Assembly: GCF_002019645.1 (NCBI RefSeq)
Contig: NZ_KV917374.1
Span: forward strand, 2,492,696 to 2,556,695
DNA length: 64,000 bases
Reading direction: 5' to 3'
Source: Litchfieldia alkalitelluris
Lineage (GTDB): Bacteria > Bacillota > Bacilli > Bacillales > Bacillaceae_L
Positions 62,219-64,000 of this stretch are shown piece after piece. Both the position numbers and the translations under genes were made by a program. The notes under the pieces were generated by a model. The model did no database searches and had not been told where the DNA came from. It saw nothing but the letters and a program-made list of their open reading frames with translations. Positions within the stretch are counted from its first letter, which is position 1. Every line of letters starts with the position of its first letter.

Positions 62219-62248
62219 ATGCAGGTTGAAAGGAGAAGCACCCCATGA
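62219..62248 (+). CDS. Nine-codon leader ORF overlapping the sinR-like start
   Basis: ATG 62219 lies about 6 bases after TTGGAGGAG and encodes MQVERRSTP. Its stop TGA overlaps the next ATG as ATGA (62245-62248). Its sequence also holds the ribosome site AAAGGAGA of the following gene, so ribosome movement through the leader could change access to it. I do not know whether the peptide itself has a role. Confidence 0.4.
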   Translation: MQVERRSTP

Positions 62249-62562
62249 ATGGAACAGTCATAAGAGAATTGAGAGAAGATAAGGGAATTTCCCTAAACAA
62301 GCTATCCAAGTTGTCAGGCGTATCAAAATCATACTTAAGCATTATCGAACGAGGGAAGCAAAGTAACCCAAGTATCTCGGTGCTTGAACGAATTGCTGAG
62401 GCATTAGAAACAGAGGTCGATGTGATTCTACTACAAGCAAAAGAAAAAGAAAAAGTAGATGATAAGATTATATCACTGGCAAAACAAATAAAAACTTCAG
62501 AACTTAGTGATGAAAACATTAAGATGTTTCGGGATTTTTTGGACATACTTCGAAAAAATTAA
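62245..62562 (+). CDS. sinR: SinR-like HTH repressor
   Basis: A 105-aa XRE-family repressor. Residues 3-62 form the HTH: IRELREDKGISLNKLSKLSG, SKSYLSIIERGKQSNPSISV. The C-terminus (SDENIKMFRDFLDILRKN) matches the SinI/SinR interaction domain (QFREFLDYQKWRK in B. subtilis). SinR represses biofilm matrix genes; SinI inactivates it. SlrR-type is the alternative. AAGGAGA precedes the ATG. Confidence 0.82.
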   Translation: MNGTVIRELREDKGISLNKLSKLSGVSKSYLSIIERGKQSNPSISVLERIAEALETEVDVILLQAKEKEKVDDKIISLAKQIKTSELSDENIKMFRDFLDILRKN

Positions 62563-62711: not shown

Positions 62712-62846
62712 TTACGCTTTGTTATGACCTTTCAGTAAAAATGATTGAACATCCTCAACACTTAATCCTAGATTTTTCGCTTCTAATATAAGGGCGATCC
62801 ACTCTACATCTAATCCTTTTTCCACTTCTTTAACCACATTGTTCAA
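62712..62846 (-). CDS. sinI: Antirepressor SinI, 44 aa
   Basis: A small protein with the SinI core LDVEWIALILEAKNLGLSVE followed by DVQSFLL, matching B. subtilis LDQEWVELMVEAKEANISPE and EIRKYLL. The TTG start at 62846 lies 7 bases from GGGAGG (62854-62859 on the plus coordinates). SinI binds SinR and blocks its DNA binding, which turns on biofilm matrix genes. Here it is convergent with the sinR-like gene, with a c-di-GMP riboswitch in its leader. Confidence 0.8.
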   Translation of the reverse strand: MNNVVKEVEKGLDVEWIALILEAKNLGLSVEDVQSFLLKGHNKA

Positions 62847-62864
62847 TCGAATTCCTCCCATTTT

Positions 62865-62950
62865 TCCAGGAAATCCAGCCATCATAGTTATGTAACCTTA
62901 GATCTGTGATTTTGCGTCCCGTCTTTTCAGGCGGTTTGCCCTTATATTAC
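62865..62950 (-). ncRNA. Cyclic di-GMP-I (GEMM-I) riboswitch upstream of sinI
   Basis: Minus-strand RNA contains, in order, GGGCAAACC (62941-62933), a hairpin CCGCCT-GAAA-AGACGG with GAAA tetraloop (loop 62928-62925), GGGACGCAAA (62920-62911), UCUAAG (62902-62897) and UAUGA (62886-62882), then GGCUGGAUUUCC. These are the conserved blocks of the GEMM-I aptamer. UCUAAG/UAUGA is the 11-nt tetraloop receptor with a C-G to U-A pair change. The aptamer ends about 8-10 bases before the sinI ribosome site. Confidence 0.85.
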
Positions 62951-63230
62951 TGGTGTTCAATATATAAAACCTTTGTACTAATCGATAGGAATAATATATT
63001 ATAAATGTTTAGAAAACTTTGTAGAAACCTGCATAAGTTTCCGACATTTTTTTCCAACCTATAAGTAGTTGAACACCTTGTATAGGTATTTATACCAGTA
63101 ATGTTTAAGTGATCTGTACGAATATTAAGATTATTTATGATTTTATAGGAGAATTTTGTAAAAAAATAGCGAAAAGAAATAATATAATATATTGAACACT
63201 TCATGTTGAACAACATCAAAATTAAACATT
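62945..63230. promoter_or_regulatory. AT-rich divergent region between sinI and nadE
   Basis: A KGTTGAAY/RTTCAACM-like motif appears four times (about 62951, 63068, 63193, 63207). On the minus strand AATGTCGGAAA (around 63050) resembles a Spo0A box (TGTCGAA) with one mismatch, and GTTTTCT around 63010-63016 resembles a SinR site. I cannot fix the sinI promoter. No gene is seen here. Confidence 0.3.
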
Positions 63231-63320
63231 ACGTGAAAAAGTAGCTCCAAGATGAAGAAATTGGTTTGTTGTTTTATAATGAAGAGATATGAGACAAGCT
63301 ATTATTATAGGAGTGATATG

Positions 63321-64000
63321 ATGAGTGATTTACAAAGAACAATTATTGAAGCCCTGAAGGTTCAACCAACGATTGATTCAGATGAAGAAATTCGTCGTAG
63401 TATTGATTTTCTTAAAGATTATATGAAAAAATATTCTTTTTTAGAAACGTTTGTATTAGGACTTTCACTTGGCCAGGATTCAACTCTAACAGGAAAGTTA
63501 GCACAATTAGCAGTCAATGAGTTAAATGAAGAAAAGGGTGAAAAGAAATATCGTTTTATAGGTGTTCGCTTACCATATGGTCTACAAGGTGATGAACATG
63601 ATGCTGACGCAGTATTGTCTTTTATTGAACCAGATGAGGTTATTACAGTGAATGTGAAGCCATCGGTGGATGCAAGTATTAAATCATTGAATGACGCAGG
63701 AATAGAATTGACAGATTTCTTAAAAGGAAATGAAAAAGCAAGAGAACGTATGAAGGTTCAATATAGCATTGCAGCGGCACGAAGAGGAGTAGTACTTGGT
63801 ACAGACCACTCTGCTGAAGCGGTAACTGGTTTTTACACGAAGTTTGGTGATGGTGCTGCTGACTTAGTACCTATCTTCCGTTTAAACAAACGTCAAGGGA
63901 AAATGTTGCTTAAGGAACTAGAAGCACCTGAACAGCTTTATTTAAAAACACCAACAGCTGATTTAGAGGATGACCGTCCAGGGCTTCCAGACGAAGTGGC
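63321..64000 (+). CDS. nadE: NAD synthetase NadE, 5' part (runs off the window)
   Basis: Ammonia-dependent NAD synthase; converts deamido-NAD to NAD with ATP. About 226 residues are visible: [13 protein letters not shown], the PP-loop region [16 protein letters not shown] near residues 45-60, [12 protein letters not shown], and [16 protein letters not shown] at the edge. The PP-loop reads SLGQDS where SGGQDS is standard. ATG 63321 lies 7 bases from AGGAG; ATG 63318 is possible. The 3' end lies beyond the window. Confidence 0.92.

Follow-up and report, generated by a model that had tools for sequence, protein, structure and literature searches.

The switch formed by the antirepressor SinI and its partner SinR is the textbook biofilm switch and has been studied mainly in Bacillus subtilis. 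There, sinI is controlled by Spo0A~P, and to our knowledge no direct route of c-di-GMP into SinI/SinR has been described. Whether such a route may exist elsewhere is the question raised by a locus of Litchfieldia alkalitelluris, located in a stretch of 64,000 nucleotides that was analysed as a whole (hereafter the window). A preliminary description of this DNA had proposed that a c-di-GMP-I (GEMM-I) riboswitch lies on the minus strand in the leader of a 44-codon SinI gene, and that this lineage wires the second messenger into SinI/SinR at the RNA level.

The presence of the aptamer was investigated by scanning the whole window with Infernal and Rfam (cmscan at gathering thresholds), RF01051 being the model suggested for the check in the preliminary description. 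Two matches were obtained, one tRNA and one c-di-GMP-I aptamer matching RF01051 on the minus strand (62866..62950). The latter covers positions 1 to 87 of the 87 positions of the model with 72.1 bits (E 3.5e-12) against a gathering score of 35. All the blocks named previously were recovered in the alignment, with GGGCAAACC, a GAAA-capped hairpin, GGGACGCAAA, the UCUAAG/UAUGA receptor and GGCUGGAUUUCC. The core features of c-di-GMP-I aptamers, namely the GAAA-capped stem with its receptor, GGGACGCAAA and the G pair before CAAA, are therefore in place; one non-standard pair was flagged in the GAAA-capped stem. As described earlier, the aptamer ends just before the Shine-Dalgarno sequence GGGAGG (62859-62854) and the TTG start codon (62846), with a distance of 19 nt between aptamer end and TTG on the same strand. 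Judged from its sequence, this RNA is likely to bind c-di-GMP and would thereby change expression of the gene behind it. A promoter-like site (TCTACA-16-TATAAT, 62998..63025, minus strand, 10/12 matches) is located upstream of the aptamer and represents weak evidence, five such sites being found in the region and 4.0 expected by chance. No terminator-like site was found in the window between 62600 and 63330.

The gene following the aptamer (62712..62846, minus strand) has a TTG start and encodes a short protein of 44 residues without helix-turn-helix (HTH) domain. It was identified as sinI by the Pfam domain PF08671 (45.9 bits, cut-off 31.4), which bears out the identity and the length given in the preliminary description. 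A profile built from an alignment of 20 proteins, with the window SinI as first row, retrieved SinI of B. subtilis (1b0n_B and 5tmx_A, E 1.2e-11). With the NCBIfam equivalog model of the B. subtilis type (NF046031), the window SinI reached 29.5 bits against a cut-off of 80, indicating that it is a member of the SinI family and not a B. subtilis-type equivalog; a second SinI of the same genome also remained under this cut-off with 36.2 bits. The window SinI would be expected to bind and inactivate SinR or a SinR-like protein.

The genome of L. alkalitelluris (5.43 Mb) harbours 17 c-di-GMP-I aptamers and 28 matches to the GGDEF domain, one of them a fragment. The Pfam SinI domain was detected in three places: in the window sinI, in a second sinI, and at the C-terminus of the sinR gene which follows the second sinI. 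These latter two genes form a sinI-sinR operon with a c-di-GMP-I aptamer of 79.2 bits just upstream, and the closest protein in PDB to the encoded SinR (L175 8701-9036) is SinR of B. subtilis (1b0n_A, E 4.4e-41). Each of the two sinI genes detected here is thus preceded by a c-di-GMP-I aptamer. By simple arithmetic from 17 aptamers in 5.43 Mb, an aptamer is expected within 100 nt upstream of a gene and on the right strand with a probability of about 1.6e-4 per gene, and yet both sinI genes found carry one; chance is consequently not a reasonable explanation for the pairing. The other 15 c-di-GMP-I aptamers of the genome (loci L001-L017) are followed by varied genes, and several of them are located within a few kb of GGDEF genes.

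The same arrangement was searched in relatives, of which 73 out of 100 showed SinI-domain matches. Around the matches listed, regions of roughly 3 kb (range 2.6-5.0 kb) were considered, and 98 of these loci were scanned with Rfam. After two corrections by hand, the counted set obtained from these matches comprised 98 sinI-like ORFs (67 genomes) and 87 sinR-like ORFs; the orthologue of the window sinI in L. salsa lies outside these counts. Among the matches listed, a c-di-GMP aptamer was found upstream on the same strand for 58 of the 98 sinI-like ORFs and for none of the 87 sinR-like ORFs, the remaining 40 sinI-like ORFs having no aptamer. Although aptamers were searched up to 350 nt upstream, the distance between the aptamer end and the SinI domain was 41-70 nt in the 58 cases. 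Riboswitch-led sinI genes are present in 53/67 genomes, 30/40 genera and 26/33 families among the matches listed. They occur in all 16 genomes with sinI of the family to which L. alkalitelluris belongs, a seventeenth genome giving no SinI match. In 35 of the 58 aptamer-led cases a co-directional sinR-like gene follows within 900 nt. Ahead of a co-directional sinR-like gene, sinI was found in 48 of the 98 cases, which resembles the sinI-sinR arrangement of B. subtilis, as do the SinI family protein itself and the proximity of the own SinR to 1b0n_A. The c-di-GMP-I model gave no match in any of the 14 control genomes; one of these is B. subtilis, which, unlike L. alkalitelluris, has SinI without any match to the model.

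Almost all aptamers of the 58 cases (57) belong to class I, matching either RF01051 or the GGC variant RF03167. The remaining one, in genome G066 (L120 1355-1438, minus strand), is a class II aptamer (RF01786, 63.0 bits), the fold of which is unrelated to class I while its ligand is the same. Fifteen of the 58 sinI aptamers were reported as c-di-GMP-I-GGC (RF03167) and not as RF01051, for instance L033, L046 and L082. In genome G061, a c-di-GMP-I aptamer (L109 120-203, plus strand) and a SinI-domain gene are separated by about 1 kb; this aptamer was linked to no sinI-like ORF.

Some GEMM-I variants sense other ligands such as cGAMP, which raises the question of the ligand of the sinI aptamers. 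The existence of such variants of different specificity would be compatible with a ligand other than c-di-GMP. However, none of the 57 class I leaders departs from the G pair ahead of CAAA, which includes what we take to be the ligand-specificity base, and the window aptamer scores far over the cut-off of the c-di-GMP-I model. The class II aptamer for c-di-GMP at the same place in one relative and the 28 GGDEF matches in the own genome point in the same direction. Altogether, a different ligand appears very improbable, and c-di-GMP is retained as the ligand in the following.

Spo0A boxes were considered as an additional feature of riboswitch-led sinI genes. The motif TTTGTCRAA was scanned with at most one mismatch in 250 nt upstream, one of the 58 regions being left out for an N. 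Boxes were found at 36 of 57 riboswitch-led sinI genes, but 9 of the 15 remaining riboswitches in the own genome had one as well, and enrichment was thus rejected. A combined input of Spo0A and c-di-GMP on sinI is neither supported nor excluded by this result.

The region between aptamer and start codon was examined for pairings that could transmit ligand binding. A regular expression identified a common form of expression platform, GCCTGAAATACT-loop-AGTATTTTAGGAGG, in 35 of the 57 class I leaders. In this form, a stem between CCTGAAATAC and GTATTTTAGG includes part of the Shine-Dalgarno sequence. The bases CCTGA are shared by this anti-Shine-Dalgarno stem and by the 3' strand of the helix that closes the aptamer (TCAG/CTGA). 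Closing helix and anti-Shine-Dalgarno stem can therefore not coexist.

Conservation of both pairings was evaluated after aligning the complete set of 57 class I leaders. The 10-bp anti-Shine-Dalgarno stem was paired in 87.6% of 502 cells, compared with 32-52% in slid controls and 84.8% after shuffling of letters (0/500 shuffles as high). It displayed 19 pair types beyond the first against 13.8 in shuffles, while two-sided changes occurred in 5 pairs against 6-9 in slid controls and gave no separation. For the 4-bp closing helix, 74.6% of 228 cells were paired, compared with 15-46% in slid controls and 69.5% in shuffles (0/500 as high). Here, two-sided changes were observed in all four pairs and amounted to 16 cells against 5.9 in shuffles, one slid control reaching 20. 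An earlier set of 36 of the 57 leaders was chosen by eye; besides the window copy and its orthologue in the congeneric genome G001, it contained 34 leaders showing the common platform. This set had given 95.8% pairing for the hairpin and 72.2% for the closing helix (26/500 shuffles as high). Since the choice by eye favours the hairpin, these values are superseded by the counts on all 57 leaders. Both pairings are kept across the 57 leaders and they are mutually exclusive.

A search of genome contigs was done with a pattern of the platform that includes the last aptamer bases and excludes the aptamer core and all of sinI. It returned 20 stretches from Litchfieldia, Fredinandcohnia, Metabacillus, Rossellomorea, Aquibacillus and several species named Bacillus. 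All 20 precede a SinI ORF and all 20 carry a c-di-GMP-I aptamer. Twelve of them were expected as they come from the genomes behind the pattern, and eight are apparently outside this set.

The predicted effect of the closing strand on the ribosome-binding site was analysed by folding the leaders. On average over the 57 leaders, the Shine-Dalgarno sequence was unpaired to 0.36 with the closing strand free and to 0.84 when the last 10 nt of this strand were removed, compared with 0.52 in composition shuffles. The unpaired fraction shifted by more than 0.2 in 46/57 leaders, and the change ran in the wrong direction in four (L028, L099, L110 and L121). For the common platform (35 leaders) the value rose from 0.27 to 0.86 (shuffles 0.50), with a change above 0.2 in 34 of them. 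In the other 22 leaders it rose from 0.52 to 0.80, with such a change in 12, and was no better than in shuffles (0.55). The energy of the duplex between closing strand and ribosome-binding region was better than the mean of the leader's own strand shuffles in 55/57 leaders, including 20 of these 22. Taken singly, only 6/57 folds were matched by 5% of the shuffles or fewer, and only 16/57 complementarities (1/22 of the others) reached the 5% level, so that the controls of single leaders are too weak to carry the argument. As a group, the predicted folds argue strongly for a switch where the common platform is present (35 leaders) and weakly in the other 22, the window copy included. In the class II leader, the last aptamer bases CCTCCTT are predicted to pair with AAGGGGG, the Shine-Dalgarno sequence being unpaired to 0.17 with this strand and to 0.92 without it. 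In its predicted fold this leader shows the same hairpin logic as those of class I.

The kept alternatives set the ribosome site against the closing helix, which the ligand should stabilise, and for this reason the leader of the window sinI is best regarded as a c-di-GMP-I riboswitch that probably switches SinI translation on (translational ON control). This type of control is firmly indicated for leaders with the common platform and is extended to the window copy by analogy. The aptamer could alternatively control sinI as an OFF switch or by transcription, through termination or antitermination. Leaders L005 and L006 of the own genome display by eye a GC-rich hairpin and a T-rich tail ahead of the gene, indicating that this aptamer class is used in more than one way in the same genome; furthermore, folding says little about direction in the 22 leaders lacking the common stem, and the four exceptions run the opposite way. 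Against these observations stands the short gap between aptamer and start codon, only 15-37 nt (two values being set by eye), in which a terminator and a Shine-Dalgarno sequence would hardly fit together. The window locus has no terminator-like site either, and the anti-Shine-Dalgarno stem that is kept across leaders excludes the closing helix. OFF control or control of transcription is accordingly considered unlikely, and translational ON control is kept as the working model.

In the window copy itself, the 3' end of the aptamer (TTCCTGG, 62866..62872, minus strand) has two alternatives according to sequence and folds. Either its last bases CTGG (62869-62866) pair with CCAG (62950..62953, minus strand), the proposed 5' strand of the closing helix P1, or TTCCT pairs with AGGAA (62856-62852) in the Shine-Dalgarno region. 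Complementarity of the latter duplex stood only at the 15% level of strand shuffles. With the platform only, the Shine-Dalgarno sequence (GGGAGG, 62854..62859, minus strand) was predicted to go from 0.38 to 0.53 unpaired. When CCAG/CTGG was forced in the whole leader, the helices expected of the aptamer formed in the window copy as well as in its two orthologues. The unpaired fraction increased from 0.25 to 0.53 in the window copy, from 0.30 to 0.93 in the orthologue of G001 and from 0.21 to 0.77 in that of L. salsa, making the window switch the weakest of the three. The same procedure was applied to three other leaders. In L008, the forced helix was TGAGG/CCTCA, which is already present in the free fold (0.35 to 0.68). 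The forced helices in L132 (AGGC/GCCT, 0.08 to 0.48) and in L124 (an unrelated TATTT/AAATA, 0.29 to 0.45) are not the proposed closing helix.

Such a weak predicted switch, together with the TTG start and the non-standard pair in the GAAA-capped stem, could be the mark of a decaying duplicate in which the switch no longer works. The aptamer, the ORF and the Shine-Dalgarno sequence are nevertheless all intact, and aptamer-led orthologues of the window sinI are present in both congeners with 64% (G001) and 62% (L. salsa) identity. Decay of the window copy is thus judged quite unlikely, and a working translational ON switch remains the favoured interpretation.

The genes around the window sinI were examined for a possible target. 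A convergent gene (62245..62562, plus strand) encodes a SinR-like HTH regulator of 105 residues (HTH_3, 56.1 bits), a candidate partner of SinI. Its best match in PDB is SinR of B. subtilis (1b0n_A, E 1.2e-15, phmmer), near full length over residues 3-101; Pfam matched the HTH and no SinI-type domain in this protein. On the other side, a divergent nadE gene coding for NAD synthase (63318..64000, plus strand; PF02540, 213.7 bits) runs past the end of the window. Beyond the window, nadE is followed by genes for an HTH_3 regulator, a Wzz-type protein and a tyrosine kinase, by an epsC RNA and by a gene for a Polysacc_synt_2 protein (L178), and further on the eps-type operon contains more genes resembling sugar transferases. 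A SinI-type domain in the eps-proximal HTH protein was suggested by eye and was rejected as no Pfam match was obtained.

The eps-type operon close to the window sinI contains the epsC RNA (RF01735; L178 3051-3162, plus strand, 102.5 bits), which was also detected, with about 100 bits each, in the eps-type operons of the two congeners (L176 8301-8413, plus strand; L177 2117-2227, minus strand). The three Litchfieldia genomes examined share the order SinR-like HTH gene, sinI, nadE, HTH gene and eps-type genes with epsC RNA, the genes of the two congeners being named partly by resemblance; in L. salsa two extra genes are located between the HTH gene and sinI. Because this order, the riboswitch-led orthologue and the epsC RNA recur in both congeners, the window sinI is interpreted as a second, eps-adjacent copy. 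TasA (PF12389) was not found in the own genome, so that no link to TasA fibres could be drawn and eps is the likelier target.

The window SinI may accordingly act on the SinR-like protein encoded at 62245-62562 or on the HTH protein ahead of eps, rather than on canonical SinR, and form a dedicated eps switch. The conserved gene order with eps in the three genomes and the existence of a separate sinI-sinR operon in the own genome are in favour of such a target. On the other hand, neither of the neighbouring HTH proteins has a Pfam SinI-type domain, while the own SinR has one. A dedicated eps switch is hence possible but rather doubtful. It can hold together with translational ON control, which concerns the production of SinI and not its target. 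The SinI/SinR target assumed in the preliminary description has to be widened in this sense: the window gene is a second, eps-adjacent copy, and its target may be SinR or the neighbouring SinR-like protein.

With translational ON control, the following sequence of events can be proposed. In the absence of ligand, the Shine-Dalgarno region would be held in a pairing with the 3' strand of the closing helix, resulting in poor translation of sinI. Upon binding of c-di-GMP, the closing helix would form and take up this strand, the Shine-Dalgarno sequence would be freed and SinI would be made. SinI would then inactivate SinR or the SinR-like protein encoded alongside, and matrix genes would be released, here perhaps those of the nearby eps-type operon. 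Where sinI and sinR share one message, action on translation would allow the level of SinI to change without a change in SinR.

A c-di-GMP aptamer ahead of sinI has been annotated before in Bacillus methanolicus MGA3, where a putative c-di-GMP riboswitch is listed before sinI (BMMGA3_08510) in Table 4 of the report (PMC4342826). In the available part of this source it is an annotation in one species, without expression platform, recurrence or exchange of aptamer class (PMC4342826). In comparison, the present analysis adds the occurrence at 58 of 98 sinI-like ORFs, an expression platform that recurs, a genome with two copies and one class II case. A literature search, largely confined to freely accessible papers, returned beyond B. 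methanolicus no paper with a title on a c-di-GMP riboswitch before sinI. In B. thuringiensis, overexpression of CdgF raised c-di-GMP, and sinI was also raised in a microarray; the accessible text of that study claims no riboswitch (PMC7793685). In the Bacillus cereus group, the c-di-GMP-I riboswitch Bc2 before cbpA switches on transcription of this adhesin gene (PMC7423583). As far as the accessible part of that study goes, Bc2 shares with the window leader the aptamer class, the ON response (predicted here) and a surface or biofilm function, and differs in acting on transcription of an adhesin gene, whereas the window leader is predicted to act on translation of a regulator (PMC7423583).

New with respect to the literature found are the breadth of the association, the recurrence of its platform, the presence of two copies within a single genome, the location of one copy next to eps and the replacement by class II. 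Aptamer class and antirepressor are both standard, and their combination in one circuit seems to be frequent in relatives and nearly unremarked. Direct wiring of c-di-GMP into SinI/SinR at the RNA level, as put forward in the preliminary description, remains the best reading in view of the recurrence in 58/98 cases and of the pairings that can hide the Shine-Dalgarno sequence; its attribution to this lineage in particular was not upheld.

A broader reading is offered here tentatively, as one that may well prove wrong. Control of SinI translation by c-di-GMP would be usual, perhaps ancestral, in Bacillaceae-type bacteria, and B. subtilis would have lost it. One lineage would have exchanged class I for class II with the same logic of closing strand and Shine-Dalgarno sequence, and in Litchfieldia a second riboswitch-led sinI would guard the eps operon. 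The ancestral state is the bold part of this reading. If translational ON control of SinI holds, c-di-GMP would enter the switch directly through translation of SinI in most of the sampled relatives that bear sinI (53/67 genomes). The best-known second messenger of biofilm formation would thereby be connected with the most familiar biofilm switch of Gram-positive bacteria, and the wiring of B. subtilis would look exceptional.
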